64,000 nucleotides of DNA, from contig NC_052488.1 in NCBI RefSeq assembly GCF_009730915.1, forward strand, positions 22,977,868 to 23,041,867, read 5' to 3'. The notes under the pieces were generated by a model. The model was not told where the DNA came from. It searched no databases and worked only from the letters and a program-made list of their open reading frames with translations. Shown here piece after piece: positions 12,501-61,172 of this stretch (its first letter is position 1; every line of letters begins with the position of its first letter). A program made the position numbers and the translations under genes. Origin of the DNA: Dioscorea cayenensis subsp. rotundata (Eukaryota > Streptophyta > Magnoliopsida > Dioscoreales > Dioscoreaceae).

Positions 12501-13400
12501 TGTCAACTGACTTCAATAGTCGAGGCAGAGAAAGATGACAGAACAAGGAAATCGATTGTGTTCCAATCTCATAAAGTTGAACTTATTCTAGCAAAAACAA
12601 CAAAATGAACATGCAGTAGCATTGTCGCTGATCTCATTTAACTGCCAAGACTTCATCCAAACGAACAAGAGGTTGTTTGTTAGGAGAATTACTCGATTGT
12701 TTAGATTGTACCAGAAACCAACAGTATCAGTAACCAGAGAGATGCATGCTGTATCTATAATAGTTAGAAACAAATAAAGGGAACAATCAACATAAATGGA
12801 TCAAAACAGCAAGTTAAGATCATACTTGCAGGAGCGTGCAACATGGAGAAGCCCATTGGTAGAAAAGCCTGAGCACTTATCTAGCTTAAGCGACTCCAGA
12901 ATCCGGCCCCGGGCTCCGACCAACACCATAATATCAGCATCTGTGACAATCATCCGCCTGAGATGGAGGGCTTTGAGACAGAGAAAAGCATCGGCGATCA
13001 CGTTGATCCAGGGACCCGCGTGGCCGCCCCAGTCCTCTGGTATGAGATTATCAAACATAGACGCACGTGGCTTGCCCTTGAGTTTCAAAGACTCGAGATG
13101 TGGAAATCTCCGGCGAAGGCGGTCAGGGGTGGTGGAGTAGCATAGGGCGATGGTGACGTGCTTGCGGGTGATGGCGTCGATGTGGCACCATCTCTGGCAG
13201 ACGAGGGAGATGGAATCCCGGTCTTTGGGGTCGTCGATGTAGTTCATAACGCACTCCAGCGCCACATCTGAAATCCCGAAGCTCAGAGCTCTGCTGAGCT
13301 TCCGCTTTTCCATGGCTTCGATCCGATTTAAACTATCAATTTGGAGGAAACGGAGCAGTTGCTGCTAGGGCTTTGAACGGACCAAGAAGCAAGGGGACGG
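9050..13400. repeat. COI1 tandem duplication unit, copy a
   Basis: A direct segment of about 4.4 kb that recurs at about 16230-20680, offset about 7.17 kb at the 3' side. Similarity begins near agaaatcaatgcgt (9060) and runs past the start codon to ctatcaatttgg (13336) and beyond. It includes 3' flank, all exons, both introns and the 5' leader. Confidence 0.85.
9539..13313 (-). CDS. COI1: COI1-type F-box/LRR jasmonate receptor, copy a
   Basis: Three exons (13313-12826, 10920-10437, 10339-9539) total 1773 nt, 590 aa, close to Arabidopsis COI1 (592 aa). The product is the substrate-recognition subunit of the SCF-COI1 ubiquitin ligase, which binds jasmonoyl-isoleucine and JAZ repressors in the nucleus. 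An N-terminal F-box (about 13-55: ISDVALECV, LVCQRW) is followed by leucine-rich repeats to LAYYSLAGRRTDCP. By alignment the Arabidopsis ligand residues are kept: Lys81 and Arg85 (KGKPRAS), Phe89, Arg348 (RLRIERG), Tyr386 (AVYVFD), Arg409 (DFRLVLL), Tyr444 (FALYLR), Arg496 (ELRGCCF) and Trp519 (RYIWVQGY). An extra Asp sits right after the Phe89 equivalent (MFDNLIP). Intron 1 is 1.9 kb and intron 2 is 97 bp. It has a tandem partner at 16712-20602, identical across exons 2 and 3 except for one residue. The gene appears intact and functional. Confidence 0.96.
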
Positions 13401-16400: not shown

Positions 16401-16711
16401 TAGAGCAATATAGAAGATGATAAACAGTCGACCATATAGCAGAGGTTGCCACAAAAGAAAAACCTGCTGCTTGATTTTCTAACCTACGGGAAAAATTGCC
16501 TGAGTTCTATCAAGATTGTGTTTTCAAAATGGCAAAGAAAAAGTACAAGAGATACAATGTGCGGGAAGATGATTATTACAGGACAGGTCCCTCGAATTCT
16601 GAAATGATACAAAGATATATGCACAAATTTTTCACGCCTAGCACATAACAAGAGCAAGAAAAATTCAATGAACCTAATGACAGGAAAATTTCGATGAGGG
16701 GAATGGAGCGC
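13314..16711. other. Intergenic between the two COI1 copies
   Basis: It holds the 5' leader and presumed promoter of copy a (13314 to about 13700), AT-rich sequence, the solo LTR at 14558-15669 and, from about 16230, the 3' flank of copy b. No other gene is recognised. Confidence 0.65.
14558..15669. mobile_element. Solo LTR with 5-bp target-site duplication
   Basis: A 1112-bp block begins TGTCACGGCC and ends CCCTTACA (TG...CA termini). It is flanked by identical GTAAT pentamers at 14553-14557 and 15670-15674. It is much more GC-rich than its surroundings, and no internal domain or second LTR lies beside it, so it is a solo LTR left by recombination. A related copy is at 27929-29138. Confidence 0.88.
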
Positions 16712-19700
16712 TCATGCATGTGGATAAAGAGGAATCACTGTATGAGGGCAATCTGTCCTTCGCCCGGCAAGTGAATAGTACGCCAAAATCTGAGCAGGGT
16801 GGTCAATTGGAGGAAGCTCTCCTGGCCTTTCATTAACCTGCCGAGGAGGGATGAACTCAATGTTCCAGTGCGGACGTGCCATCACCATAAGACCACTGCC
16901 ATTGGGGGATGCGTTGTACCCCTGCACCCATATGTACCTCAATGACACTAGCTGGGTGGCCGCTTGGGCCAACGCACGCTCGCTGAAGCAGCAACCCCTC
17001 AGTTCCAGCTTCTGCAGGTCAGGGCAGCCTTCTGAAAACCGGAGAAGCCCGGCATCAGAGTCTCCTACAAAACCCAACAGCATATACCGTATGTTCTTAC
17101 TGTTTTCACCGATGTATGCAAGGCCCACATCTGATAAACCCCCGGGTCTTAGGTACAGAGCGAATCTCCTGAGCTTGGTGCATCCCCTCAGCAGAGCTCG
17201 GACACCATTGTCAAGGGGCAGCTCTGTGATTCTTTCTTCCCTCTCAAGCAAGACAAGCCGAAAATCACAAAGGTTTTTGCTGAAGGTGCCTATGCATTCT
17301 AGGGCAGCATTTGAAATGTCGAACACATACACAGCCAGGTATTCCAACTCCAAACATCCTTCGGCAACTGCAGAAAGCCCCCTTTGTGAAACCATACCTT
17401 GCTCATCCTCCAGTCCTTGTTCATCCTCCCCTCGCTCTATTCTAAGCCTTCGTAGTTTCTTACATGTCTGAGCCACAACTTCTAATCCTCGGTCTCCAAT
17501 AACATTCCTTACCTATCACAAATACAAGAGAACTATTAATGGGAAACAAATTAAAGCCAAAATTAACAATCAGCTGAGGTGTGACACCAAGAGCAGCGCT
17601 GTATGCTACCTCAAGAATCTCTAGATTTGGGCATTGTTGAATCAGTTGGCAATGGTCCTCAGTACTGAGAAAGGTTAGCTGAAGATCCAACTTCTTTAGT
17701 GCAGCAGCAAGTGGGAATATTATAGGCATCTCATTGGTTCCCATGAAAGTGAGACCTATACGGCATAACCTTGGAGGGAACCGGACATTTGTGTACCTGT
17801 TGTTCACTTCTCCGGGTTGTTCATCAAATGAACCGCCAGCAAAGTCTTCCAAATTCCTGGCAGCTTGGAAAAACCCAATTAGCTCTGACATATCGCAGTC
17901 ACTGATCTTCAAAGAAACCAAAGACTGACAATTTTTAGCAAGCAATTCAAGTGCTTGATATGGGACAATTTTGAGCTCTGTCAGATAGAAGTTCAAACTC
18001 TCAAGAACCGTACTGTTGGAAGCAAGCTCATGAAGCCATTTGGCATCATTTTCAACAATCAAACTTTCTTCTAGAAAAAGTGTTTTGAGGCATCTGCAGC
18101 ACCAACACATCGCCATTGAGAATATAAGGTAAGCAATAAAATGAGCCAAGTAATAACAGACTAGATATATAAGGTTTGCTTGTATTTGTTGTTTCTTTTT
18201 CAATAAAATAGCTTCAATGCTCTTTTTATCAAAAAATAACAGACTAGATATTAAAGCAACCCCACAAAACACAGATTAAATTCCTTTTATATTCTTGTTC
18301 CTCAAGTGGAACATTAATGCAATTATCACCGAGCTGGAAGGCATGAAAATGTGGTAAATCATCAAGGTATTAGATTCAAAGACAAGACATTAATTAAACA
18401 ACAGTTGATTTTCTAAAAATCACCTTATGAACTTTCTCCCACATATTTCTTAGCCCAACTCCAGTATCAGTGTGAACTGATGGGGAAACAGAACAAAAAA
18501 ACATCCAAAACACTCTCAAGCAAATCACAGATCAGATTATCAAATGATCATAAAGTGCTTAGTGATTTGCTTTCCTGAAATGAAGACAATAAAAACACAG
18601 GTTTAAAAGTATGCAATGTGGTTTCATGACACCCTGTTATATCATCAACTTTCACATGTGTGCCCTTTTATAATCCTTTTGCAAGAAGTCTCTTTTTTCT
18701 TCAGTTTCTTCGTGAAGAAACAAAACATAAGCCTAATTGTTAGCTCAAATCCCCAAATGGTCAACCGATTAACGGAACGCCAACAACCTTTCCACAGAGA
18801 ACAATAGTTAGATGTTCACCAATTTCACATATTAGCCAGACCATCCTCCTGTTTCCATAAATTTATACTCTACCATTGCAACACCTGAATTTTCATTTTC
18901 TGCTTGGCACCGCTTTTAAATTTATGACTATTCACTGCATCTACTAAGAACAACAAATCATAGAACACCCCTAGGCTGACCTGATACAATTCTGCCATAA
19001 GTGTCATTCCACAAGTTTTATTCATCCAAAGGTAAAGCTTAAGACTAGATGACATAGAAAAATTCTACATGAAGACCAAATTTAACTTGAATCAAGAATG
19101 GACTTCTCTACATAAAAGATGTGAAAGTAAAAAAGCAATTGCACTAGGGCAATTAAAAGTCACATATTGCATAAATGTTACATTGTTTAGGTGTGATAAC
19201 TTCTTGCAGATATGTTAAATTGCATCTCTTATAGTATAAACAAGATTCCTGTGGCCTAAAGCCTGTCATGATGTGCCCATGGTAAATAGTTTTGCAATTC
19301 CCCTAAATGACATTGATGGCATAAATGATGAAAAAAAAAACTCATGCAGAGGACTTTATCAAAGACTGGGTTGGTCATTGCTTATTGGCATTGAATAAAA
19401 TATTCCACTAATTGTGTCTGACATTTAGACCCATGATATGCCAAATGCCATCCAGACTATGCTCTTCTCATTAACTGAAATGATAACATTTTATTAGGAA
19501 TGTTCCTGTCAGACATGAAATGCTAATGTAAAGAAAAATGAAATAGTAAGGGCTTGTTGGCCCCAACCTCAGAAATGTTTGGCACAAGGAAGCCATACAT
19601 GTTCTTAATACTCCCTCCTGTGTAAGAAAAAAAAAAGAGGGAAAACATGGTATGAAGCTCCTAATTGATGCCAAGCTAATCACCTAGTACAGAACTAATT

Positions 19701-20602
19701 ACAGACTTTCCCCTAAATCAACAAAACCATGAACACTTAATGAAATTAAGGTTGCACCACCCAAACTATTGTCAGTTAACTTCAATAGTCAATGCATAGA
19801 AGGATGACAGGACAAGGAAATTGATGTTGTTCCAATCTCATAAAGTTGAACTTATTCTAGCAAAAGCAACAACATGAACATGCAGTAGAATTGTCGCTGA
19901 TCTCATTAACTGCCAAGACTTGATCCAAAAAGCAAAAGGTTGTTCATTAGGAGAAATAAATGATTGTTTAGTTTGACTACTCTGACCTTAATATGGTTTA
20001 GTCCTCGAACAGAATCAGTAACCAGAGAGATGCGTGATGTATCTATAATTTTTAGAAACAGATGAAGGGAAAAAATCAACATAAATGAATCAAAATAGCA
20101 AGTTGAAATCATACTTGCAGGAGCGTGCAACAAGGAGAAGCCCATTAGTGGAAAAGCCCGAGCACTTATCTAGCTTAAGCGACTCCATAATCCGGCCCCG
20201 GGCTCCGACCAACACCTTAATATCAGCATCTGTGACAATCATCCGCCTGAGATGGAGGGCTTTGAGACAGACAAAAGCATCGGCGATCTCGTTGATCCAG
20301 GGGCCTACATGGCCGCCCCAGTCCTCTGGTATGAGATTATCAAACATAGATGCACGTGGCTTGCCCTTGAGTTTCAAAGACTCGAGATGTGGAAATCTCC
20401 GGCGAAGGCGGTCAGGTGTGGTAGAGTAGCAGAGGGCGATGGTGATGTGCTTGCGGGTGATGGCGTCGATGTGGTACCATCTTCGGCAAACGAGGGAGAG
20501 GGCATCCCGGTCTTTGGGGTCGTCGATATAGCTCATAACACACTCCAGCGCCACATCTGAAATCCCGAAGCTCATAGCCCTGTTGAGGTTCCTGTTGTCC
20601 AT
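16712..20602 (-). CDS. COI1: COI1-type F-box/LRR jasmonate receptor, copy b
   Basis: Three exons (20602-20115, 18093-17610, 17512-16712) total 1773 nt, 590 aa, the same lengths and splice phases as copy a. The ATG at 20602 (MDNRNLNRAMSFG) aligns with the copy a start; the in-frame TTG 12 nt upstream is not a credible start. The F-box, LRRs and all jasmonate-pocket residues listed for copy a are present, including the extra Asp after the Phe89 equivalent. Exons 2 and 3 differ from copy a by one amino acid (ALAQAATQ versus ALARAATQ). Exon 1 carries many more changes, such as Arg for Gln before RW, Tyr for Cys after it, and Lys for Met in TDADIKVLV. Intron 1 (2.0 kb) has a copy-specific short retroinsertion at 18169-18234. 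Probably functional. Divergent 5' halves and promoters could give the two copies different expression or SCF assembly. Confidence 0.96.
18152..18251. mobile_element. Short 3'-truncated LINE/SINE-type insertion with 17-bp target duplication in COI1 copy b intron 1
   Basis: The 17-bp sequence aataacagactagatat occurs at 18152-18168 and again at 18235-18251. Between them is a 66-bp insert that contains caataaaatag and ends in a short A run. Copy a has a single related site (about 10978-10996) and no insert. Long target duplication plus A-rich end is the mark of target-primed reverse transcription. Confidence 0.72.
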
Positions 20603-21407
20603 GGCTGAATCCAATCTAAGCTATCAATTTGGCGGAAACGGAGCAGCTGCAGCAGCTAGGGCTTTTAAGGGACTAACAAGTGGTAAGCCATGCCATAAAA
20701 TCGCAGTCAGAGGTCAAACAAAAAAGAGGTAAATCAACGGAGAAATATATATATATATATATGTATACATATATATATATATAGAGAGAGAGAAAGAAGA
20801 GCGATATATTGAGCTGAAATCAAAGAAACGAGATTTTTTTTTTTTCTTGGATTCAGGGAAAGTCGGAGGAATCAGCGGATGAAGGCAGCTAGAAGAAGCA
20901 CAGACACCATCCGCGAATCGACGACGGCGATGTTCAGGACTGAGATCGGGGGAACTGGGACAGAGAGAGGGAGCCAGAGCCGAGGGCGGCTCGCTCGGGT
21001 GGGATGATGTGCGACCTCATTCCTGGTAGGCCATTCGCCCTAATGCTCTCAGTGGCCTGGCCTTCTTTCCTTTCTGATGATATATTAAATATTTGATAGA
21101 GAAAATGATAGAGAGATGAGGATAGAGAGAGAGTGCGTGCGTGTGTGTGCGCGCGCGCGAGAGAATGTGAGAGAGAGAGAAAGTTATTTTTGTTTGTCTA
21201 TATATATCTATATATATATATTTTATTATTATTATTATTATTTTTTTACTTGAAAATTTTCACCTAGTATGGTGAATGATGTAGATTTGGTGCTCTGTGG
21301 TGGACTGTAGCAGAGAAAGACGGAAGCCTTTAAAGAGGAGAGAAACGGAAAGGTAAATGAATCTGATGAGCGTGTCTGTGTCTCATCACATCTTCCCACC
21401 GTACATG

Positions 21408-44418: not shown

Positions 44419-46223
44419 TCATATATCCTTTTTGGGTGAAACGCGACCGTCAGTCCCGGCGAGCATGAGGTACTTGTCCTTACGTGTAAGGTTGGTGCAC
44501 TCGTAGCAGAGAGTAGCGGCGAGAAGTCGCTGGATGTAATTGGCAACCTGGATGGGTGACTTGCCACCAGCACAGGTGTGTTCTTTGTGGAGTGGTTTTA
44601 GGAACGTGATCTCAAACGTGGGGATGGGGTTCATAAAGACCATATAAGGGTCCAGCGCCTTCCAACCCCTCACGGTCGTGCCTTGAAACATGCTCTGCTT
44701 CGTAATGATTGCTACGGGGACAATCTGGTCCGTCAGCTCAGCGAACAGGGCGCTGAATCGCAATAGGTAGGGCTCCCTGCAAGTGGTGCCCTCTGGGCAT
44801 ATCACCAGATCGCCCTCTTCCAGTAGCTTCTTGATGATTTCGGCGTCCTTCTCTCGTTCCCTGCTCAAAGCCACTGCTTTGATCGGGGAGATGATCTCTG
44901 TGAACTTGCTGATGCTGTAGGTCACGCAGCTGACCTTGCGGCCAAGTGCCACCGCGGTGATGAATGGGTCACACATCGTGCGATGGTTGCACACGAAGAG
45001 GAAGCCCGGCCTGCCTTTTCCTGGAGGTGGCGGAGGGCTTCCCTTCACCACCAGGTTAATACCCATGAGCTTGTAGTTGTACCGGATGATGTGCTCAGGG
45101 AATGGAATGTTGCAATATATTCGGATTAGTGCTAGAATGAAGCCGATGGGCATCCACATGAAGGTCAGCAGTGCCACCATTGCTGTCGGCCGCCGGACCC
45201 ACCGCCCGTCATGGAAAATAAGCGGTCGCTGTAACTGCTTTATCGGTACTCTCTGCCATCTCCCATCGTCATTATTTGGTACGAGGCACACTTCCTGCAG
45301 TGCAGTGCAGTGACTCATTTCTTATTCCATATCTTATAATTAATTATTATTCATTCATGCATGCGTGCTTGCATACATTACCATTTTATTTATTTATTTA
45401 TTTATTTCAGATTGAGATCGAGCACTAATTTCCTCATTTAGCTAGGTTGTTTAAGGTTTGTCTTCTCAACCCCTTCATGTTGGAGTTGAGTTGTCAAGTC
45501 ACTGTTATGAAAGTAATTAAAAGTGCATGGGGAAATGGGCGGCAACGGCGAAAGATCGATAGAAAGAAAGAAAGAAAGAAAGAAAATTCAAACCTTGCAC
45601 ATGGACATGAAGCCACAATCAGTTTCTCCATCTCCATTAATACCCAAATCCGGCATGTTATCACCAAATTCTTGCTGGAGCGTCTCCTTCATGAGCTCCC
45701 CGAGAAGAACACCGGGTTTGCTGACAAAACCTGTTGCCCTTCCGGACTTTGTGGTTTCTAGTTCTGTCCCCAGGACCTTGTCAGCCCCTAGGAAGCTCTT
45801 GACGAAGGGCTCAACCATTATTCTTGGGTTGGCGGTGACTATGCACCTCTTGCCAAAAGAGTTGAACATTTTCCATCCCTCAGGGTGTACATCCTCGGTG
45901 TAAAACTTTGGCAAAACTGCCGCTGCCACCATGTCTATGTCTTTGATCTTCAACCCGGCAAAGGATATGTAGACAAGCATCTGTATCCCCAGGGACCGAG
46001 AGATGAACAGGGTCACAATGTACACGAGGGGGACACAAACCAGGAGAATTACTCCCCTGAGGAGACTGCCAGCTTCAAGTGCCACGAGCATGTAGTAAGG
46101 AAAGGCGTTCCTGGACAGGAGAAGAGCGCCATCTAGCTCCGCTATCACCGTCTCATCAGACCTATTTTTAATTCCTTTTGAGCTCTGTTTGCTTATTGGT
46201 TCTAACCCACGTATAACACCCAT
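44419..46223 (-). CDS. sn-2 glycerol-3-phosphate acyltransferase, GPAT4/6/8 (cutin) clade
   Basis: Two exons (46223-45594 and 45294-44419) total 1506 nt, 501 aa, the length of Arabidopsis GPAT6. Family members use acyl-CoA to acylate glycerol 3-phosphate for cutin monomers at the ER. The N-terminal half is the HAD-phosphatase-like domain; the C-terminal half is the acyltransferase, with HX4D at His314-Asp319 (NHRTMCDP), [15 protein letters not shown] (377-379 PEG) and [18 protein letters not shown]. Membrane segments include [18 protein letters not shown] and [20 protein letters not shown]. Clade marks are [27 protein letters not shown] and the tail [12 protein letters not shown]. Oddity: phosphatase motif I (D-x-D-x-T/V-L) reads ELDGAL, with Glu29 for the nucleophile Asp and Ala33 for Thr, while Asp31 and DxxxD (DGETD) remain. 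The ATG at 46223 fits the family; the in-frame ATG at 46370 would add an unlike extension. Intron 1 is about 300 bp. Confidence 0.95.
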
Positions 46224-46500: not shown

Positions 46501-48166
46501 TTTTTTTTTTAAATGGATAACCTTGAATTCATTAAGAAAACATCATCCGAATAGAATAAAGAGACAAAAGACCTCTAAAAACACCCGGAGGTGTAAACAT
46601 GGGACAAAAAAACAAATCAAACAAAACACATTAGCAACTAGCAACATAATAAACAACGCCTAAAGAAGATGTCGGAAGCCATGATCGGGAGAGCAAACTA
46701 AGAAGGCGCCGTTGATGGAGAAACATCAGTCGTGCAAGCAAAAAGCTGGTGGATTTGGTGGGTGGGTGGGTTGGGGGGCGGGCAAGGATCCTGGAGCCCA
46801 CAAAACTAAGACTATGCCTGATCATAGGAAGAGACTCCACAAGATAAAGCCTAGACGAGTCGGATGCTGCATTGATCCAAACAATGAGTAAATGATCAAT
46901 CTTACCGATAATGGCAAAAAACATTTCAACGACAAAAGAAAATATGCGATTATTGCGTTCAGTGCAAATGACCCAACAGATGGCTCGTATCAGGAGACAA
47001 CCTAGATGGTTTTGACTCAGTCGATCCTTCCAAAGCCCAAGAGGTCCAGCCTCTGCCAGGGTGGTGGGGGCCCCTAACCGTAACACGAAGCGAAGTGGGT
47101 CCAGATCAAAGAGGAAAACGGACAAAGAATTAAGAGATGGTCAACACTTTCCAACTCAGCGTTGCAGAGGACACAGGTATTGGTTGAGATTCTATTGCAA
47201 CCCCGCCGAGCAAGCTTATCTTGAGTTAAAATTTTATTGTTCTGGGCTAACCAGAAGAAAGCTTTGACTATAATCGGGTAGTGTCCCCCTCCAAAGAACC
47301 TTGACGAAGGCGCAACGAGAGCCACCATAGTTGAGAAAAGAGTAAAAAGATTTTGGTTTAATTGCCGTACAGGTCCCTATAATTGCGTAATTTCTGTCCT
47401 TTTAGTCATTCTAATATTTTTAGATACAATTAAGTCCTCATATTTAGTCGAATTGGGTAATTCTAGTCCACAACAATATTTTTAGGTACAATTAAGTCCT
47501 TGCAATTTACACTTACCCATCTACACATCGGACTAAAATGACCTAATTCAACTAAATATATGGACTTAATTGTACCTAAAAATATTGCAAGGACTAAAAG
47601 GGCAGAAAGTACACAATTACAGGGACCTGTACATTAATTGAACCAAAGATTTCACAGTGAAGCCCTTGTTGTTCCATCTCCAGATTTTAGAGTCTTTATC
47701 ATGGGTAACATCGAGAAGAAGTGCAGATCATAATGGAAGAAGCAACACAAAACTCGGATCCAGCTCTGTAAGGCAGAAATCCACCACCGAGCTGAGGGGG
47801 TTACTCAATCCAGCGAAGAGGTCAGGCCATCTGTGTCTCAGCATGGAGCCCTCATACCATCGGTCTAGCTAGAACGAAGTGTCCTTCCCGTCTTTGATAG
47901 AGACATCAATACTAGTTAAGAAAGTAGCTCTGCACTTAAGTAGACCTTTTCAAAAAAAAAAAAGGGTTGATCCTTGGGATAGTATGGAACAGAATGATCG
48001 ACCTACCAATCGGCGCATAGTTAAAAGTAATGATGTTAGACCAGTAGGAACTACAATAGGTGGAGAACTTCCACCACCATTTGCCAAAGAGAGCCTGATT
48101 GAAATCAGCGAGATTCAGAATGCCCAACCACCTTAATTTTAACGAAATATGACAAAGAATTTTCAA
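46501..48166 (-). mobile_element. Degenerate LINE (L1-type) 3' part
   Basis: On the minus strand, reading from 48166 down, broken frames give WLGILNLADFNQALFGKWWW, the region after the RT core, then the zinc-binding RT domain (FFWLAQNNKILTQDKLARRG, CVLCNAELESVDHLLILCPF) at about 47280-47110, then CWVICTERNNRIF at about 46960. The 3' end is marked by a run of A (plus-strand T10 at 46501-46511) after gaattcaaggttatccattt. The element is split by the MITE at 47354-47644 and carries frame breaks, so it is dead. Confidence 0.85.
47354..47644. mobile_element. MITE inserted in the LINE remnant
   Basis: The terminal inverted repeats are long and clear: ggtttaattgccgtacaggt on the left against ggttcaattaatgtacaggt on the reverse complement of the right, continuing through ccct and further. 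The flanks share the octamer AAAGATTT (47346-47353 and 47645-47652), and the ninth base differs. An 8-9 bp duplication suggests a Mutator- or hAT-type MITE. About 290 bp, non-coding, with internal inverted copies of aatatttttaggtacaatta. Confidence 0.85.
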
Positions 48167-48170
48167 GTTT

Positions 48171-49595
48171 TGTTAGGTTTGACGACGTGGATTGGCATTA
48201 TTTGACAAGCCAAGTAGTGACATGGCAAGAGAAAAGTGACATGGCATGATGACTTAGCAAATGAAGTAATGACTAGGATGATGATGTGGCAAAATGTTGA
48301 TGTCATGACATGTGAAACTACAAGGGTTAGAAGATCATAATGAAGATGATGTGTAGAAGATATATTTCTCAATGAAGTCATGTAATGATCAACTATTTTT
48401 GGAAAGTGCATCAAGTTAAAAGGATCTCTTCAAGAAGGGTAAGTTTTATTTAAAGTATGTTTATCTATCCTTGATAAGATCCGGGATGATAAATCATATC
48501 TTTGATAGAACTCCTTTTTGGAAAGATCTATTTTAAAAAGGGAGAGGAATATTCTATCATTGGTAAAAATTCAAGATCATAAAGATTGTATGGAACTTAG
48601 TTTGGTGTGAAGCTATTTGAAGACACAAACTAAGTTAGGCAAAGGCAAGCCAATGTGATTATCAAGACCATAGTTAGCAAAAACTATTTAAAGAAAGATC
48701 CAAGAGCAAATTATGGGCGGAACTATTTATGGAGACTAGTCATGTATGGAGATTGATTGAAGATTACATGAGATATGATTAGAGATTTGAAGATCCAAGC
48801 ATGGATGATTGGAGATCATGCTTGAAGATATCGAAGGCTAAACCTGGATGAAGATGAGATCAAGTTTAGAAACAATATTTCCATGAGTCAAACGAAGATA
48901 TTTTAGGAAGACCAAACTTGGGCCAAGTTTGGAAAGAAGATCGGGAGATCTTCGTTGACCATCTTTGGTAAGATGGTTGCATGTGCCTTGGTGGGCACGT
49001 CCCTCGGGAGAGGGTAACCTACTGAAGTGACGTGAGGAAGGAAGCAACTGCAGGAAGGAGGAGCTTGGGTTGAGTCAACTGCTACGAGGCGAACTGAAGG
49101 AACCTGGAAAGTTGAAGGTTGCAGATTCGGGTGCAATTGGCTAGAACCCAATCATGTTCAGTAAGGTGGGCCATGTTACAACCGGATTTTGCAACTGGGT
49201 GTTACAACATCTAACTTTGGAAGGTGTCCAAGTTAGGAAGCTGCAGAGAATTCTAAAAGAGGAAGGTTTATTTGGATGTCGGTGCGTCTATATCAGATAT
49301 CTTGTTTGAAGATTTAGGACGAGCTACGAAGTGAGAGACCCTTGGGCGAGGGTTGAGAAGAGTGGACATCGGTCAATCTTAAGAGGATATTCTGTGTCTT
49401 AGAAGAGTGAGAGAGTGTTGCACTATTTATTCTTAAGCCTCTTTTAGTGGATTGATTCTCTGGACTTGGCCCCCCCCAGATGTAGGCATGGTTATGCCGA
49501 ACTGGGTTACCATCTTTCTTGTCTCCTTTCTCTTGTTTGGTCGTGTGTGTATGTCCAATCTTCGAGTGAGTTATTGAGTGACTTATCTTACCACA
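48171..49595 (+). mobile_element. LTR-like repeat, copy 1
   Basis: It starts TGTTAGGTTTGACG and ends near TTACCACA. The right part has the look of a Ty1/copia-type LTR end: cttttagtggattgattctc, a ggccc...gatgtaggc block, gaactgggttacc, then a pyrimidine-rich tttctcttg tail. The left part is rich in atgatgtggca / gacatggcaag motifs. Copy 2 repeats this order. No protease, integrase or RT frame was found nearby, so it is probably a solo LTR or non-autonomous element. Confidence 0.55.
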
Positions 49596-52269
49596 ATACC
49601 TACTGGAACCATCAAGTTTCAAAGCAAAATACATCATCCTTCACACATTACAAGTAAGACATAATGGGTGGAACTAATTATTAACTTTATAATTAGGTGA
49701 ATATATATTGTTAGAGCTAGGCTATATAGTTGGCATCATTTGGCACCAAATTAAGATGATGTGGCAATGACAATGATGTGGCAAGCCTAATGACATGGCA
49801 AGATGACTTGGCAAAGGATGATGATATAGCTTGAAGACTCGAAGACCATGGTTGGTGCTATATTTGGAGGATCTCAAGAAACCATATGGAGCTATCTTTG
49901 GTAGAAGCTTATATTGTGAGAATCTCTCTCAATCAACTTTGGAAGATCTCTCTTGAGTAGAAAGCAAAAGCCATGTGAAGAATATCTACACAACTATATT
50001 TGGAGATTGGATCTATTTGAAGACATAATGATATATATATGGTCACAAATAATTGGTGAGATCAAAGCTATATTTAGAGAAGCTATATAAGGAAAGTGGG
50101 TTGCAACTTCAAGAGCAAGCAAGCAAAATCCTAGCCTTATGAAGTCAAAGACAAAATGAAGACACTTGTATATTTGGCAAGTGAATCTATCAAGCAACCA
50201 CTTGTAGGCAAGATCTCATCAAGACCATATTTAGATACAACTAAAGATTTGTTCAGATTTGGAGAGAATCTAAATATGGAGGCAAAGCTAAACGGAGTCA
50301 TGTCTATTTTTGGTAAAAAACATTAAGGTGAAAAGATCTCTCTGGAATAACAAGCCATGAGGAGTATATCTAAAGTTAAGATTTAATCTATCTTTGGTAA
50401 GATCTAGGATAATAAAATTTATCTTTGATAACTTTATTAATTTCTAATGAGAGATTTATTTCTTGAAGACCATGTGGAGAATATTCTAAAGAAGGAAGTA
50501 ATCTATTTTTGGTAAGTATGAAGACCTTCATTTAGAGACCAAGATTGCATGGAACTTAGTTTGATGTGAAGCCATTTGAAGGTACAAAATAAGATAGGTA
50601 AGGGAAAGCCAACATGATTCTCAAGACCATAATTAGCAATGCAAATTGAAGAAGAAGATCCAAAGTTAATTATTGTTGGAGTTATTTGAAGACACAAGCT
50701 ATTTAAGAGCACACGTTATCTTTGGCAAGTGTATGGATTTGGAAAAAGATTGATGACCCAAGCTTGGATGAATGAAGATCATGCTTGGAAGATATTGAAG
50801 AGCTAAACTTGGATGAGAGGTGATCAAGTTTAATAACAATATATTGAAGACCTAAAGACCAAACTTGGATAAATGAAGATCAAGTTTGAAGATTGTGAAG
50901 ACAAAACATGGATGAATAGAGATCAAGTTTGGAAAGAAGATCATGGAGATCTTTGAAGACCATCTTTGGTGAGATGGATTCGTGCCTTGTTGGGTGCGAT
51001 TTTCAGGAGAGGGACCTGCTGATATGATATGAGAAAGGAGACAAGTTGTTGGCAGGAAGAGCTCAGGAGGAATAGACTACATCGATGCTAACTGGAGCAA
51101 CCGGGAGGGTTGGAGGTGTCACAGGTCATATTGTAACAGGAGCTGTAACTCATTTAAATTAGTAGGTGGGCTGCATTGCAAGCTCGGTTGCAATAGGTTT
51201 TGCAACATCTAATTTTGGAAGATATCTAAGTTAGGAAGCAACGGAGATTCTAAAAGAGGAAGTGCTATTTTGGGACATAGAGACGTCTATATAAGATACC
51301 CTGCTTTGAGATCTAGAGTATGCCACTGGAGAGAGTCCCTTGAGTAAGGGTGAGAGAGAGTGGGCATCGGACAATTTAAAAATTAAAGGGTTATTTTTTT
51401 ATCTTTGTAATGATGAGTGTGAGAGTTGTACTCATTGTTTTTCATCCACTACAAGAAAAACAGGAATTTGGCACGGTAGATTTGGCACGGATTTTGACCA
51501 AAAAACCGTGACAAACTGATGTTGGCACGGATTTTGGCACGGAAATATAACCGGGTGCTTATAGCATGCGTGACAAAATATAATTTGTCAGCGGAATAGT
51601 AAAACCGTGCCAAATTTTGTCACGCTTTTTAACTAAACCGTGCCAATTTTGTCACGGTTTTAGGCACAGTTTTTTGGTACTATTTTTGGCACAGTTTTGT
51701 TTTGTCACGATTTTTAGGCACGGTTTGTTGTCACTATTTTTGGCACGGTTTTTGGCATGGTGTTTTGTCACAGTTTTTGGCACGGTTGTGTTTTGGCACG
51801 GTTTTTGGCACGATTTAGTTGGTACAGTTTTTGGGACGGTTTTATGTTGTCACGGTATTTGTTCTGATTTATTTAGTACCATTTTTGTCACGGTTTTGCT
51901 TTTGTCACCTCTTTTTGTCACGGTTTATCTTTCGTCAATTTTTGTCACGGTTTTTTGGCACAAAAGACAATTTTTAGCACATTTTTTTGTCATGATTTTT
52001 TGCACGATGATTATATATAATATAGTTGTTGGTACATTTTTGTCACATTTTTAGGCAGCGGTTTTAAATTTAGTAAGGATATTGGCATGGTTTTTGTCAC
52101 GAAATTTGGAACAATTTTCTTTAAAAAATTTATAAATGGATTTATTTAATAATAAAATCTGTATTTAATTTCATCAAAATATATATTGCCATATTTGTAA
52201 AATAACCAAAATTGTTATTACAATCATAGCATGACAATAATAAGGTCCAATCTACATAAATCCACAAAA

Positions 52270-52411
52270 CTCTAAACATAAACCATGTATATTATCACTC
52301 TGTTATGACTCCCAATGGCTACCTCATTCCATAATTCGTCTTGGTTAATAGAATTCTCATTCATCCCTTGACTGCATTTATCTACTAGTGCTTTGTCAAA
52401 TTCCTCCTGCA
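52270..52411 (-). pseudogene. CACTA transposase (TNPA-type) C-terminal relic
   Basis: After an acceptor-like TGCAG (52415-52411 on the minus strand) an open stretch gives EEFDKALVDKCSQGMNE, then DELWNEVAIGSHNRV and YMVY. This resembles the end of plant Ptta/En/Spm transposases, which finish with W-x-x-VAGG-x-x-(R/K)GRVYGLG. The key glycines are altered. It is short and isolated, so the call rests on the context of a CACTA element. Confidence 0.5.
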
Positions 52412-55379
52412 TCCATTAAAAAATAAACATATTATTAAATGATAGTGAGTTAAATTGGCTAATTAATTTGAGTTTATAAAACCAATTCTCAAATATTAAA
52501 TAAAACTAAATAAATATTAAAGGTTTTCATACATTAGCTGACTTTCCTAGGTTTTCATACCATTAATGTCCATTGAACAGACCTTTCCTAAAAAACCACT
52601 CTCATTAATAACATAAATTTAATCAATGACTTTCTTTACAAAGAACATGAAATGCATTCCCATAATTGAAAGTAGTATAATATTTGGACTAATTAAATAA
52701 ATAAATAAATAAATAAATAAAAACAAATGAGATAACGAACACAAGTGGCATCTAAATTTAATATGCATTCTATGGCATCTAAAAGAATGTACAGCAAATC
52801 ATGAATTGGATATATAAAGCTAGAATACGAGCTCATGTTAAAACAAAGTTCAATTTTAACTTATATATTCAAATCCTATTTGATAAATCATCAAATTAAC
52901 ATTTGAGGAGTCATACTTCTGCTATCAACCATCAGAATTAAATCTAATGACCCAAGAAATAATTGAACCTTATCAAGTCTTGGACAGATATATTGATGAA
53001 GGAATAATAAAAAATAAGCTCAGCTAGAATTCAAGTACATTTAACTCAAAGAAATAGAATGAGGAAACTTCAAATAGAATCCTGGAAAACTGATATATCT
53101 ATAAGATTGACCTCTAAAAAAAAACCATCAAATCACATCTCATAATATACAATTAATTTCAATGAGATAACATAATGTGCAGACAAGATAATGTAAGCAA
53201 ATTTCAATAAATGAAATCAATGTTAGTGGCTCTCTAGCATTTCAATACTAGTGGTTTTTTTCCTGTATGACTCCATGATGCTAATGATACTACTACTACT
53301 AAGAATAATAACTACCATGATGCTTTTTTCCTGTATGACTAGTGGCTCTCTAACATTTCAAATTTCAATAAATGAAATCAATGTTAGTATAGTATTTTTA
53401 TTTTTTATTTTATTCCAACCATGTCCAAGTGCAGTGTATATTTAGATTTAAAAGACACATTGAACAAACACAATAATGCACACACATACACAATCAAAAA
53501 TGGAAAAGAAAGAGGGTGGGAGAAATGGGTGCTATTATGATTCAGATGGTGATTAGGGTGCAAAAGTGTTGATCCATTAATAAAATCATGAATAATTTTA
53601 ACTAATTTGTCTCCATAAAGCATATGCACCATAAAGTATCACTAGTTTGTCTCCATCTTACGATCTCCCAATCATCTAGCACTGTTATATGCGTCATTCA
53701 ACCACCCAAAGAAATTACCAAAGTATCATTGTATTCCACTGGTTCTTACCAAGAATATTTATATATATATAAGAAATGTGATCTTGGTCAATGCCATCAA
53801 ATGATCAGATCATGGCTACAAACCGTATTGTACTAAAGCAGTTTAACAAAAGTTTGATCTTTTCAACAACAAAAAATGATTCTGTGATTTTTTCCTAAAA
53901 ACAGAAAAAATAAATTAATCCACTTCTAGTGTTCTTTACATACATGTTTAACAAATGGAATACAATGGACTACCTTTCCAGCAAAGCTTTTTTCACCATC
54001 ATTTCTCCTAAATGAAGTGCCCTGCTTCACTGAATAAAAAGCCGAAACAAAAAAATAATTCGAACCACAGAACTCCAAAAAAATTTGAAATCTATAAAAT
54101 AATTCCAAACAACATAACTTCATGAAGGCTTCAGTGCAAACTAGTTATCAATGATTATCCGTCTCCAAACCATTTTTTTAAGATAAGTAGATGAAAATTC
54201 AAAATTATAAGTATAGTACTCGATCATAAACCAAGTTATGACCCTCCATCAATAAAAAATATAAGAAGATTCAATTATGCCAAGATACCCTGAATGACAG
54301 AAAAACTGTTTAGCACCAAAGATTCCCCATCATAATAATACAACCCAGCCTGTTTATAAAATGGCAAGCACACATCCTTTTGAACTGCAGCACAATAAAA
54401 TCACAAACCACATGCCATCAAGTGTTTTCATCTGATAAACATCATCATGGCAAAAATCATAACAAAATGGAGTTTCTATACTCTATACATCTCCTCAAAT
54501 ACTTAGGACTTGGGCCCTGATAAAATAGCCCATACTTACACTATAACTGACTATCAATTAAATATAAAAAACAAAGCCATAGAAACCATGGAAGGATTAT
54601 TTACATCAAATTCACTGTATAGATATTCAGACACTTTGCACTACTAATGATCATTAGAAAACAACACAATCCATCAAAACTCAAAAAGTAATTGCAACAC
54701 AGTGCCAATAGAATCAACAAAGTGATGAGCAAAACTCTTTGATAGTACGAGATTTGGGTATGCATGTGTCAATAGACACGTGAGATATATCATAAACATT
54801 ATGCTCCCTCTCAACAAATAGAGAGTCATCAAAAGTCAAACAGATATACTACACTCGAAGGAAACAAAAGCTTCCTTCCAACATAATAATTTGAAAACAT
54901 TAAAATCCTTCACAATCACAACCACACCATGCAATGTAAAGCAAAGTCATTAATGGAGCAGAGATGGACCTCACTTATTCAACTTCTAAGAATTAGCTTA
55001 TACAACATCTGATAGCCAAATCACTATGCAACTCTAACTTTTCACCTAATCGAGATCGGAGATGTCTCAAAAACTTGAGCGTATTACAAACAAGTCATCC
55101 AAATAAGAGTCGGATAGAGCAATTCGTCGAGCGACAAGTAAAGCATGCCAAGCATTGTTTGAAAACAATCCAAGTACATTTGTTAGGCACTAAGTTATAA
55201 TTAATTGCATTTTTAAACCGCTCAGACATCTCGGGTTGTCATGTACATACCTCCAAAACAAATTTCTTATAATGTTGATCATTAAAAAGATAGAAACCAT
55301 GTTTACCAGTTAAGATACAGATACGTAAAAGAAAGAAAAAAATCACACTATAAAAATAGGCATGAAGCAAAAATACCTT

Positions 55380-55510
55380 GGCTTGTTCCAATTAACCATC
55401 CACATTGCTAGTGGAATAAGCGACTGCCTGCTTTGCGAGCATTAGCGATGATGGGAAAGCCCGATTTCCTTGGAAGTGAGTCCTCCTCTTGGCAAGCACA
55501 CCCTACGAAT
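55380..55510 (-). other. Exon-like fragment of unknown origin inside the CACTA element
   Basis: On the minus strand, a stretch bounded by GTAG at the left and CCAAG|GTATTT at the right is more GC-rich than its surroundings and reads KRRTHFQGNRAF and LAKQAVAYSTSNVDG with one stop. I do not recognise the protein. It could be a later exon of the captured gene or a separate capture. Confidence 0.35.
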
Positions 55511-55695
55511 AGAAGTAACAAACGGTGATCATAAAGTTTAGGATATGTGACATAGATCCATGTTGCAATTTTTAAGCGGGAGCGAACAAGCAAAGACACC
55601 AACCTACCTGCTCTAATAGATGATCTAGAGTCCATGAAAAAGGTGTTAACCTTTGATATCAAATGCATAGTTTTACTGCTTAGGAAGTAACAAAC

Positions 55696-56225
55696 CTCTC
55701 TAGGATAAGTATATCAAGCTTGTATTTTTGACTATTGGTTCAACAACCCGATTTGCTTGATCTCTATTCTTCTTACGCAAAGCTTTCTTGATCTTTCTCT
55801 TATGGGCCCTTATATCCCTGAAGCATAAGATGAAAAACAAACAAACAAAAATGTAAGCAATTTACTAAACACCATATAGCGAAGATCAAAAGAGACAAAA
55901 CCAATAAACAAAAACAAAGAGAAGACACCGATCACTCGAACTTTTTCAATCGGTCATGAGCCGGAAGGCGATATCTTTCATATGATAATAGGTCTTGTTG
56001 TTTCCCTCGACCTTCTTCTTGGGCTCTCGAGGAATATCCCTTGAGAATACATAGCTTCCCCGCAAATCGAGCAAAAAAATGGCATAAAATCGGAGAAAAC
56101 CAATACCTTTCTTTCGCAAAACAAAAGCGAGAGAGGCACTGTCTGGAGAGACTAGTCCGGAGGTAATGAATAGCCTTGGTCCCGGTGATGTACCGAGTCA
56201 GCGTTCCCCCTCCTTCTTTTCCCCG
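55696..56225 (-). pseudogene. PES: Captured Pescadillo (PES/NOP7) gene fragment, degraded, introns retained
   Basis: Three exon-like pieces on the minus strand match the conserved N-terminus of Pescadillo, the PeBoW-complex subunit for 60S ribosome assembly. Piece 1 (about 56225-56139): RYITGTKAIHYL. Piece 2 (about 56057-55935): KLCILKG, then [20 protein letters not shown] and, after a shift, AHDRLKKFE. Piece 3 (55817-55696): DIRAHKRKIKKALRKKN, NR, then [10 protein letters not shown], followed by a donor-like GT. The family order is [66 protein letters not shown]. Single-base shifts in each piece make it non-coding as it stands. The spaces between the pieces look like introns, so genomic DNA, not cDNA, was captured. 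It covers roughly the first 130 residues; the BRCT part is absent. It lies wholly inside the CACTA element. Confidence 0.82.
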
Positions 56226-56595
56226 GAGAAAGAGAATGAGCAGATGATTGGTTGTGGTTGATTGGAGATGGAGATGGAGATCGAGAGGAGAGGGAAAGGG
56301 AGAGGGAGAGAAGAAGCTCACCGGGAGGCGTTAGTGCTTCGAGCATGCCGACAACCCTCGAGAGGATCCAAGACGGAGGAGAAGAATGGAGAGCTTGAGC
56401 GGGCTAGCAGTGACTACGAGATGAGCAAGGGTTTAATAGGGATGTCGTCGTCGGTCTTTCGGTGGCTTCACGCCAGCCAGTGACGCCAAAAGGAGTCTTG
56501 AGGGAGAGGATCGCTCGGGTTGGAGCACGAGGCGGCGAGGTTTGATCTTTAGGGTCAGAGGGTGAGAGAGGATCGCTAGGGTTTTCCGTTGTATT
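56226..56595 (-). other. GC-rich promoter/leader-like segment upstream of the Pescadillo fragment
   Basis: Minus strand: AACCCTAGCGATCCTCTCTC near 56582, CT-rich leader sequence, then ATG at 56346 (MLEALTPPG) followed by a donor-like CCCG|GTGAGC at 56325. The base composition is that of a plant gene 5' end and quite unlike the AT-rich transposon filler on both sides. It may be the captured 5' end of the Pescadillo gene or of a second gene. Confidence 0.45.
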
Positions 56596-57351
56596 ATTTT
56601 TGTTCACATGTAAAGCATTTGGTAATTTTGTAAATAAACCGAATTTAATACTGGGTTTCTTTTTAAGGAAATAATATTACAAAAATTCAAAATGCAACAT
56701 TCAACCCTAGGGCAAAATTAAAAAAAAACATATAATTTTTTCTAATATTATTCAAAAAATTTTATTTCCAAATATAGGAAAATCTAAAAAAATCTGTAAT
56801 TATTTTTTTTAAAAAAATAAGCCACTTAGGTTTTTGTGATATATACACTTTTTTACACATGCATGCATACATGATAAAACATAAAATTTATTTAAGTATT
56901 TAGAGTGGAATAACATTGTGAGAAAAACTTCACAACAGAAGTTAATGGTGTATTAATGATATAATTTAAATCATAACAATTTCCGCTCGGAAGCAATAAT
57001 AAAATTTATCAATATTAATAAAATTTAATAAATTTAACATTGAATATTGTAGAAAATAACCAAAAGAACCTTTCACATATATACCCTTTTAAAAAATTTT
57101 AAATTTAAATATAAATAAGAATAATAATACTTAAATAAAATATTAATTTTTAGATACGTTTTTAGTCCTTTTCTATTAGAAACGGATTAGAAACGGATAT
57201 TTTTAATATTTAAATAAATTATATTTTAAATTTCCGTTTGTAAGCCGTTGTTATTTAGATTATATTTAAAACGATTGTTGGTCCATTGTTAATCGGGTGT
57301 AAGTAGAAACGAAATAAATTCCGTTTGTAATATTCCGTTTTTAAACAATAA

Positions 57352-57364
57352 CTTTCTTGTAGTG
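57352..57364. mobile_element. Extra CACTA-type terminus (CTTTCTTGTAGTG)
   Basis: This reads as the right end of another CACTA element and is preceded by its own subterminal motif set (AAACGGA / TCCGTTT, 57180-57350), different from the CACGG motif of the host element. The matching left end was not found in the window. Confidence 0.5.
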
Positions 57365-58011
57365 TTCAAGGTCTTTTAAGCTATCGAATTAATGTCAACA
57401 AAAACTTACTAATATAGCTCACACGTTGCCATTATTTTTCATCGTGTTAAAAGAAATAATCAAAAGAATAATTAAGGGGAAAAAGCGGGGAATAAAGACC
57501 AAGCAGAGGACCTAATTTAATTGCCCTGATCGATCCAAAAGAATGAAAAGCCTTAAATTATTATTACTATAATTATTATATATTTATTATTAATAATAAT
57601 AATAAGAAGAAGAAGAAGAAACAAATAATGATAAAACAAATAAATATATATATATATATATAATATAATATAAAAATATAATAAAAAAAGAAAATAATAA
57701 TAACAATAATAATAATAATAATAATAATTTATTTTTTTAATAAATAAATAGAGTAAAATTATTATGTAATTATTATAAATAAAGTATAATTATTATGAAT
57801 ATAGAATATTATATGTATGGGTAATTAAATTATGCTACCAAATTTTAATATATTTTTGTGAAGAATAGTAGAGATTTTGTAAGAAAATATTATGCCAAAA
57901 AAAAAAATATAGCTTTTTTTATTGTGGGTCTATAATTATTATCAAAAGAGTAAAATTATTATGTAATTATTATAAATAGATTAAAATTATTATAAACCGT
58001 ACAAAACTCGC

Positions 58012-58860
58012 GTGACAAATAAAAGGGGTCGTGTGTTTGTTTTGTCAGCAGTTTTTAGCATGATCAGCCTTAAACCAGCAAACGACCGTGCTCAAATCCA
58101 TGGACTCCGTTGTCGCGGTTTTTTAGCGCAGGTTCAAAAGTCGACGCCAAAAAAGCGTGACAAAGAAAGGATGATGTATTTGTCACGGTTTTTGACACCG
58201 TCAACCCTAAAGCTCGTAAAAACCGTGCCAAATACCATGGATTCCATTACGGTTTTTAGCGCGGATTTCACGACGCTATAAAAGCGTGACAAATAAATGT
58301 ATGATATGTTTGTCACGGTTTTTAGCACGATCAACTCTATCATGCTAAAAACCGTGCCAAAGATCATGAATTATTAGTCACGGTTTTTTATGCTTAAGAC
58401 TGATCGTGCCAAAAACCGTGACAAATAAACGCATTATATGTTTGTCACGGTTTTTGGCACGGTCAACCCTAAACTGTGCCAAAAACTGTGACAAATACCA
58501 TGGACTGATTGTCGCGGTTTTTGGCACGGTTTAAGCTGATCTGTCAGCTGTGATCAAATAAATATATGATGTGTTTGTCACGGTTTTTGGCACGGTCAAC
58601 CCTAAACCGTGCCAAAAACCGTGCCAAATACCATGGATTCTATTGTCACGGTTTTGGTACGCTTTCAAAGGTTAATCATGTCAAAAAACCGTGACAAATA
58701 AAAGGCATTATATGTTTGTCACGGTTTTGGCACTGATTCAGGGATTGATTGTGCCAAAAATCGCTCAAAAGCCACCTGGACTCCGATTGTTATGGTTTTG
58801 GGATCTGTTTAGGATTGTTCATGCCAAACATCGTGACAAATGTGTTTGTCACGGTTTTTG
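58012..58860. repeat. Palindromic ~135-bp tandem array at the right subterminus of the CACTA element
   Basis: Units begin at gtgacaaataaa-like sites near 58012, 58157, 58286, 58418, 58550, 58691 and 58832, spacing 129-145 bp. Each unit contains TTTGTCACGGTTTTTGGCACGG facing CCGTGCCAAAAACCGTG, so each can form a long hairpin, with the palindromic core ataccatgga between. Confidence 0.85.
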
Positions 58861-60029
58861 GCACGGTTTTTTGTCTAAATTTTAGACAAAAAACATAAAT
58901 GGAAAATGCTAAATCATGGTGACAAAATTGTCACGATTTAATGATCTGCTAAATCTGGTGACGACATTTGTCACTACAAATTTTTGTTCGCTGCCAATTT
59001 CCGTGACAAGTTTGGCACGGAATCAAAACCGTGCCAAATAGATCGTGCCAAATTCCTGTTTTTCTTGTAGTGATCACTTTTAGTGGATTGTTGATCTTTG
59101 GGCTCGGCCCCATAGAGGTAGGCAAGTTATGTGGAACTAGATAACCAATTCGTGTATTTCCTTTCTCTTGCATGTTTGATTTTACATTGACTGTGTGTGA
59201 TTGCATTATATGAGAGATTGATCGAAAACTTACCACACAACTACCCCTCCGGACCTAATCCGGACCTAATATATGTATATATATATATATTTAACAAAGA
59301 CGATAAGTGTTGTCCTACAAAGGAGTTAATTAGGTGAATATATATACATTGTAATTGTCACCCTTCGTTTCCATTCATCCCTTTTCTTCTTCTGACTTTC
59401 CAACTATAGAATAATAACAATAATAATACTTGAGTACCACATCAAGTGTGAAAAGAAAAAAAAGAGAGTTGTAAATATGCACGAGATGTAGGACGTTAGT
59501 TGAAGTGTTGGTGCTTTCATGCATTAATATAGTTGCATCCCATACACCACCACTGCAATGAAACGTGAAACGTGAAATGTTGAGCGGACCAGCCAAATTA
59601 AATAATTTGAACATTGTTATACTACTCTTTGCAGATACGTTAGACGCCTCAGCCACCTCCCTGGGAGCTGGGTGAGTTGATTTTGATCAGCGGTTTAAGT
59701 TTAATAGAGCAATTTATAGTACTTAGTACCATCCTAGACTAACATCGTTCCTTTATTTATTTCTTTATTTATATTTGATTTTGGTTTTTGCTGCTCTTGA
59801 GCTGTCGGCATGTTTCAATATTTTTTGAAAAAAAATTAAGTCATCCAATATATTAGAAAAAAAAATATAAAATTAAACATGTATAAATACAAGGGTGATC
59901 ACCAAAATAAGGGTACGTGTGCAGAATAAAAATGGGATACACACAAATGTAAATATGGTATTTTGCTAGGAAGATGGTTGTTGAGACAAGTGAACGTGAT
60001 ATTTTTCATTTGTTAATTGTTTTATTTAT

Positions 60030-60445
60030 TTATTTATTTATTTGAAGAAAGAACCCATTTATTAATAAAAAGAACAAAGGAACAAGGGAAAGGGAGCAAA
60101 GCCAGCAAGATTAAAAAACACATTAACAAAGAAAAGAAGAAAATAAAAACAGGAGCATTAGAAAGTAATCCAAAATCAATGAAGCTTCTCATGATCCAAC
60201 AGGGGAGATCTTGTCCTTGGAGGAAAAGGTTCAAAGTATGAAGGTTTGAGCCATGAACAGCCAGCTTAGTGGCAGGAATGATCCAAGAGTGCGGAATAAC
60301 ATTGATTGAGTTGGCATTAATTTTGCTAGTTACAATAGCTAGTGTTGAAGGGTGTTTGCTGCGATGAATGTTGTGAAAATTGACTTGGGTAATAAAATGA
60401 GAGACGAGTGAATAAATGATAGTTTGGTTGTCTAACTTTTGCAAT
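60030..60445 (-). mobile_element. Possible retroelement 3' end
   Basis: A 136-codon open frame on the minus strand (60444-60034) runs into an AATAAATGGGTTCTTTCTTC segment followed by (AAATA)n at about 60018-60045, like the tail of a LINE or retroposed copy. The peptide (VHGSNLHTLNLFLQGQDLPC near its middle) was not matched to a family. It could be a non-coding relic. Confidence 0.3.
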
Positions 60446-61172
60446 GAAACGATTCTACAACGTTCTTAGAAAATGCAAACTTGTTGGATATAGTTATCTC
60501 CTTTTTGTTGCATGACTTGTACTAGCAATAGTTGGAATAAAAAGGCTAGTAGTAGTTTTAGTTTGAGTGTGCATTGATAATAATTTTATGTTTTTTTTTT
60601 CAGGTTTGTATATTTAAATTATATTTTTTTAATCAAAAATTTTATTATCGCATTATTTTACATTAGAGACAATTGCTTTATTGGATGATTTTATATATAT
60701 ATTATACTTTTAGTCCACCCTTTTAGTGAGTTTTGCCACTTGTCCTATTAAGTTGATGTATTCACGATTTCAATCTAATATAAATTTTTATAAACTCTAT
60801 TGAAGTTTAGAAAAGAAATCTATTGAAATTTAGAAAGGAAATCTATTGGATACAATTAAGAAATATAACTTTATCTCTATTTACATTGGATATTACTATT
60901 AAGGGCCATTTGTGAAAATATTACCGTCCGTTATATGACAATTTGGAAAGATCATCACGTTTGGCACTGTAGCAACAATAGTAATATATATTGATTGTAA
61001 TATGATATTAAAAATAATAAAATATTAAAAAAAAAATAAAAATTAATAAAATATTACTGAGAAACTTAGTTACATAACCACTAAAACATGTGGTAATCTT
61101 GGATTACTAAGTGGTGGTGATCTAATAAAATTTTTAAGACAAACATGCCTTCTTTTTTCAAATTGATTTTTA

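Follow-up and report, generated by a model that had tools for sequence, protein, structure and literature searches.

The CACTA transposon at positions 51447–59072 of the window, the 64,000-nucleotide stretch of DNA analysed here (C18:22977868–23041867 in the Dioscorea rotundata (white yam) assembly), is in all probability a composite, non-autonomous Pack-CACTA element, in which host DNA was captured by one CACTA family (family 2), taken up by another (family 1) and mobilised as a unit. Genomic DNA of the Pescadillo (PES) gene is carried by a family-2 CACTA element on C3 (copy C3c). In the lineage of the window element, the PES piece breaks off within intron 4 and is joined there to genomic DNA of a UIF-like gene, both running in the same orientation. 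The family-2 body lies within a repeat, R, and its left end is gone together with 42 bp of R; R and the truncated family-2 block stand between family-1 ends at several places.

The Outer CACTA Element

The outer element has a length of 7,626 bp and is bounded by 29-bp terminal inverted repeats (TIRs) which are identical to each other and start with CACTA (CACTACAAGAAA...). The triplet ATC is found on both flanks, in agreement with the 3-bp target site duplication (TSD) of CACTA (En/Spm) transposons and with the preliminary description of this DNA, which had reported a CACTA element with both ends and a target duplication. The features of family 1 are as follows.

51444–51446, no strand: left copy of the TSD (ATC)
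51447–51475, plus strand: left TIR, 29 bp, identical to the right TIR
51447–52814, plus strand: left family-1 part, its GGCACGG/GTCACGG motifs lying at 51470–51944; found elsewhere without the composite, e.g., at C18:8920104
58150–59072, minus strand: right subterminal region, with motifs shared with the left side
59044–59072, minus strand: right TIR, 29 bp
59073–59075, no strand: right copy of the TSD (ATC)

Subterminal repeats, another character of CACTA (En/Spm) transposons, are present at both ends. The terminal zones contain 20 GGCACGG/CCGTGCC and 17 GTCACGG/CCGTGAC motifs, and all 37 matches in the element fall within 51470–51944 or 58182–59029, the remaining window having nine. A related repeat at 49199–49603 crosses the insertion site without the element, and the joined flanks align with it (294 of 393 bases identical). 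Since both ends, the TSD and this related empty site enclose the PES fragment, a PES gene with a CACTA element inserted beside it was ruled out. Two neighbouring related repeats (48582–49382 and 50541–51379, 69%) were also observed, the outer element being inserted in the second.

Domain scans of the 39 element ORFs of at least 50 aa, below which size smaller pieces would escape detection, showed no transposase domain; at this ORF size the element is without a transposase of its own, as is a non-autonomous Pack-CACTA. No autonomous partner for the composite was identified in this analysis. The same scans gave Pescadillo_N matches under the cut-off (E 0.0037, 0.024 and 0.029); other Pfam matches (e.g., Tox-MPTase4, E 0.0019, antisense to PES) were likewise under the cut-off and were taken as chance. 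Rfam gave no match at gathering thresholds within 48000–60500. Pack-MULEs have a target duplication of about 8–11 bp, and assignment to this class was rejected on the 3-bp TSD. Pieces like 52150–52814 of family 1 occur at many genome sites without the rest of the composite; the fetched family-1 copy at C18:8920104 has the family-1 left end and diverges from the window at 52812.

Outside the element, a two-exon gene like glycerol-3-phosphate 2-O-acyltransferase 6 was observed at 44419–46223 on the minus strand. The closest protein is from D. sansibarensis (88%); since identity to the named D. rotundata protein is only 73%, the gene is perhaps unannotated in D. rotundata.

The Captured Host Gene Fragments

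PES is considered an essential gene. When the 120 plant PES proteins listed were used as tblastn queries, a single colinear minus-strand chain was obtained at 56238–55692 (best E 9.3e-16), which bears out the Pescadillo similarity first proposed from the letters of the DNA; outside this chain, no match in the window was better than E 0.16. The best PES score within the element was 67.0 bits, and the maximum in 300 dinucleotide shuffles was 33.1 bits, which rules out chance similarity. In a frameshift- and intron-tolerant alignment with 193 PES proteins retrieved, D. rotundata PES ranked first and D. zingiberensis PES second. A count of 94 identical residues among 113 includes five (residues 4–8) that the aligner took from intron 1. 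The captured fragments are as follows.

55633–56441, minus strand: captured PES fragment, from the start-codon exon into the fourth intron; 86.9% to the C8 parent
56324–56346, minus strand: PES exon 1, coding part, with the ATG at 56346; splice point from the intronless C17 copy
56143–56232, minus strand: PES exon 2, limits approximate
55938–56058, minus strand: PES exon 3, limits approximate
55697–55822, minus strand: PES exon 4, reaching approximately residue 121; limits approximate
53735–55638, minus strand: second host gene fragment, UIF-like (putative mRNA-export adaptor); 87% to the C5 locus

The similarity traces to C8:2722392–2723193, where the yam genome has its intact PES gene; this locus aligns unbroken with 56441–55633, the introns being colinear with those of the fragment; this supports the capture of a gene fragment by a Pack-CACTA element, as had been suggested. 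The captured stretch is longer than the 55696–56225 first described, and the three exon-like blocks recognised there are PES exons 2–4, exon 1 with its start codon having been overlooked. In total, the fragment has four exons, three full introns and part of intron 4, corresponding to about residues 1–121 of 604, so whole PES cannot be made from this piece. Because the introns are retained and can be aligned with those of the parent, the capture was from genomic DNA and not from mRNA.

Exon positions were marked from two PES copies without introns, one on C17 and one on C2141, which match only blocks of 55633–56441. The C17 copy matches 56397–56324, the block containing the start codon, and 56228–56143, 56058–55938 and 55822–55685. 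The C2141 copy contains a 320-aa open frame.

The earlier account of the capture was correct in placing PES in a CACTA element but missed a second captured gene. The fragment at 53735–55638 contains the terminal part of one exon, another two exons and introns, and matches C5:21802449–21804293, a locus with a readable exon series whose intactness as a gene was judged by eye. The joined peptide matches FYTT (Forty-two-three protein) with an E of 0.0058, under the family cut-off, and the motif MDMSLDDIIK is taken by us as a pointer to the UIF-like identity. The two fragments, in the same orientation, join at 55633–55638, where a short TTC is common to both sides. Host gene DNA thus lies between the ends with its parents elsewhere, at C8 for PES and at the C5 locus for the UIF-like gene, as in a Pack-CACTA.

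Copies of the Composite in the Genome

The assembly searched for copies and parent loci comprises 584 Mb in 2249 contigs. The DNA query 55690–56600 gave 36 matches: eight long ones (window, C5a, C9, C3a, C20, C3c, the parent C8 and C3b), eight that are pieces of the two intronless PES copies, and 20 short ones, all within 56438–56600 (the first 163 bases of the query). Six places with the composite were detected, and at four of them, the window included, both ends and a separate TSD are present. The three other complete composites are as follows.

C5a, 30800771–30808953: TSD AAC, both family-1 ends
C3a, 216975–222891: TSD GGA, both family-1 ends
C9, 8881309–8887940: TSD CTT, both family-1 ends

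Two composites are incomplete: C20 has the left end only within the stretch fetched, and in C3b, with a similarity of about 80%, one end was located and a run of N interrupts the PES part. In each of the three complete copies listed, the PES fragment lies inside the CACTA ends; the overshoot beyond the ends that, according to the preliminary description, would have refuted the capture was not observed in them. An element with captured DNA is therefore present at several sites, as in Pack-CACTA elements, and the family-2 element C3c also carries PES. The right end of the inner element followed by ttcaaggt is kept in the window, C5a, C3a, C9 and C20. A segment of about 53915–55026 is missing from C3a, C9, C20 and C3b and kept in the window and, minus some 130 bp, in C5a.

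Sequence Damage in the Window Copy

Between the window copy of PES and the C8 parent, exons and introns differ by 13.0% and 12.1%, respectively; the corresponding values are 4.5% and 8.7% for C5a and 5.4% and 9.6% for C3c. Compared with C9, C3a and C5a, the window differs by 0.0–4.1% per 400 bp, mostly below 2%, over 52247–55046, by only 2.5–4.1% over 55447–55846, and by 8.2–13.6% over 55847–56646. The terminal zones are also divergent in this comparison (left 2.6–8.0%, right at least 11.5%). The single-base shifts noted in the preliminary description are present in the assembly, but exons 2–4 are free of indels in two of the five other copies compared (C5a and C3c).

Assembly error probably lies behind a good part of the differences of the window copy. 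The competing explanation, that its frameshifts and substitutions are true decay of an old pseudogene, has a smaller though substantial chance of being correct. It is favoured by the nearly equal differences from the parent in exons and introns, and by the finding that conserved PES sites were hit as freely as variable ones (13 of 61 versus 6 of 52, p 0.21), whereas D. zingiberensis and D. rotundata differ at nine of the same sites, none of them conserved. Furthermore, the exon indels show no significant association with CAG/CTG (4 of 6, compared with 124 of 352 background positions, p 0.19).

The evidence for assembly error comes from the distribution of the substitutions. In PES, 38 of 103 bases in CHG motifs of the parent were altered in the window, compared with 71 of 610 other bases. 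The numbers of altered CHG-motif and other bases were 21 and 45 in C3a, 25 and 45 in C9, 29 and 62 in C20, 11 and 33 in C5a (p 0.047), and 11 and 47 in C3c (p 0.33); in the poorly aligned C3b, the fractions were 36/64 and 162/460. When COI1-like duplicates were compared, one comparison out of four also had an excess of altered CHG motifs (odds ratio 1.8, p 0.0012), so that the excess as such is not specific and only a directional test separates the element. These duplicates are tandem copies of a gene like coronatine-insensitive protein 1, a jasmonate receptor, at 9046–13389 and 16226–20680 on the minus strand; two aligned blocks have identities of 94% and 85%, and part of one copy matches PDB 3ogk with an E of 1.3e-126.

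The directional test counted A-to-G and T-to-C changes at the central base of CAG/CTG, which give CGG/CCG. In PES, such changes were found at 6 of 19 CAG/CTG in the window, versus 19 of 371 for the remainder, and at 7/21 in C9, 5/21 in C20, 2/21 in C3a, and 0/21 in both C5a and C3c. Over the whole element, each complete copy was compared with the unanimous other three, which gave 10/54 at CAG/CTG versus 32/3195 for the window, 2/48 versus 6/3143 for C9, 1/43 versus 12/3155 for C3a, and 5/48 versus 86/3271 for C5a. In the UIF-like fragment compared with the C5 locus, the window had 10/57 at CAG/CTG versus 28/1132, the CAG/CTG counts of the other copies being 9/21 (C20), 3/21 (C9), 2/53 (C5a) and 1/21 (C3a). 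None of the controls in the window (two blocks of the COI1-like duplicates and one pair of flanking repeats, in both directions) was significant, the six comparisons giving odds ratios of 0.6–1.9 and p of 0.23 or more. The directional excess and the null controls argue against true decay, as do C5a and C3c, which have neither directional changes in PES nor indels in exons 2–4, although over the whole element C5a has such changes at 5/48 CAG/CTG; moreover, deamination of methyl-C would yield C-to-T, not A-to-G or T-to-C at CAG/CTG.

Nanopore was presumably the sequencing platform of the D. rotundata assembly. The words nanopore, MinION and polish do not occur in the main text of PMC7749330. Basecallers that were not trained with native plant DNA are known to cause problems (PMC7501810, PMC9749173); the CAG/CTG pattern is not named in the available portions of these two papers.

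Possible Function of the Composite

Most likely, the composite persists as silenced passenger DNA. That the fragment is instead a working regulator, acting through a PES/UIF-like chimeric transcript or through small RNAs dampening the parent genes, is improbable. The preliminary description had raised the possibility that antisense or small RNAs from the fragment, if it is transcribed, target the parent PES gene. The common direction of the two fragments and the splice-like sites kept in them are consistent with such a role, and a review describes maize Helitrons, Pack-MULEs and Sireviruses with gene pieces as siRNA reservoirs (PMC13317346, CACTA elements being unnamed in the part available). 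A telobox-like AAACCCTA at 56584 points in the same direction, but it belongs to the family-2 segment, outside the PES-derived DNA, and direct splicing from PES exon 4 into the following UIF-like exon would be out of frame. The GC-rich segment of about 160 bp in which this telobox-like site occurs is recurrent and is perhaps a promoter region of family 2.

It is similarly doubtful that the two-family composite is a methylated mobile cassette of PES and UIF-like DNA, with small RNAs that reach both parents and the CAG/CTG pattern as an assembly footprint of CHG methylation. In that case heavy CHG methylation would be expected on the captured host sequence and not on the parents.

The Inner CACTA Element and the Origin of the Composite

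The account of a single CACTA element given in the preliminary description had to be revised, PES having entered as part of another CACTA element, which has since been truncated and has its right end at 57364. The features of this inner element and of repeat R are as follows.

52816–53093, no strand: left piece of repeat R, host of the family-2 insertion; 99–100% identical at C13 and C9
53094–57364, no strand: body of the inner (family 2) CACTA, right end kept, left end lost
56438–56600, no strand: family-2 segment next to PES, also without PES at 20 further listed places
57354–57364, minus strand: right terminus of the inner element (TTCTTGTAGTG), with five AACGGA/TCCGTT motifs at 57181–57334
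57365–57538, no strand: right piece of repeat R, 42 bp from the match of 52816–53093 at C13 and C9

No partner end for the inner terminus at 57364 was found in the window. Repeat R is uninterrupted at C13:4283372–4283880 and C9:3002660–3002158, where the matches to 52816–53093 (99–100%) and 57365–57538 (84–87%) are 42 bp apart, and the similarity of the window to C3c starts at 53093, the point at which the left piece of R ends. It follows that the left end of the inner element is missing, as are 42 bp of R. The uninterrupted repeats also show 53094–57364, PES included, to be one block. The right limit of R and its passage into family 1 would lie somewhere within about 57540–58150; at C13 the next similarity to the window (57535–57617) is about 830 bp further on.

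Copy C3c is a family-2 element, from C3:7235866 to about 7243192, with PES joined to the 56438-side segment at a breakpoint near 56440, the same as in the window. Its PES piece is longer, reaching near residue 140. Provided that a deviant last terminal base is allowed, C3c has ends like that at 57364 and a TCT duplication. Segment 56438–56600 recurs without PES, a CACTA end of similar sequence being nearby in 9 of 15 fetched loci.

From these data, family 2 would have made the PES and UIF-like captures, family 1 would later have taken up R with the truncated family-2 element inside, and transposase supplied in trans may have moved the composite as a single unit. The order of the captures is read from a single family-2 copy, C3c, in which the last terminal base is off consensus. 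It is very unlikely that the outer family made the capture and that the end at 57364 marks an unrelated, later nested insertion. The missing family-2 left end, owing to which the inner element is not demonstrable whole in the window, would be compatible with this, but C3c, with family-2 ends, has PES on the same native segment with the same breakpoint, and the uninterrupted R makes the block containing PES a single one. Least credible of all is a processed, mRNA-derived PES pseudogene in the transposon by accident, for although the genome has two intronless PES copies, these are without the intron stretches that the window retains in alignment with the parent.

Relation to Known Elements

Similarly to the Pack-CACTA and Pack-TYPE elements described in the accessible part of PMC8903248, the yam element is non-autonomous and has host coding DNA between its TIRs. 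It differs from them in combining two CACTA families, with a truncated family-2 body and a repeat between family-1 ends, and in its host genome, yam here and rice or maize there. The same source describes Pack-TYPE elements in which several loci were captured, and also fusions between neighbouring insertions. Tgm-Express of soybean, in the portion of PMC1947982 available, is also a plant CACTA transposon mobilising host gene fragments; for the yam element, in contrast, transcription and splicing are hypothetical. The Chenopodium CACTA elements, according to the part of PMC8978399 at hand, contain host gene fragments too, located upstream of a transposase-associated domain, whereas no such domain was found in the yam element. 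No earlier report of the yam composite was found among the titles from a limited literature search.

Conclusions

In multicopy plant elements, what looks like the decay of a pseudogene may in part be assembly error at CAG/CTG, and caution is advisable. The composite exemplifies an already known route of gene shuffling by transposons, joining pieces of two RNA-pathway genes, PES acting in ribosome assembly and the UIF-like gene encoding a putative mRNA-export adaptor. One genome shows the intact parent, the longer PES piece in a family-2 element, the inner insertion site without interruption, family-1 elements free of cargo and several copies of the composite; since all these stages are present together, capture, fusion and re-mobilisation by CACTA elements can be dated stepwise in yam. 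As PES is considered essential, a conflict between small RNAs from a captured piece and a needed gene would be testable here.
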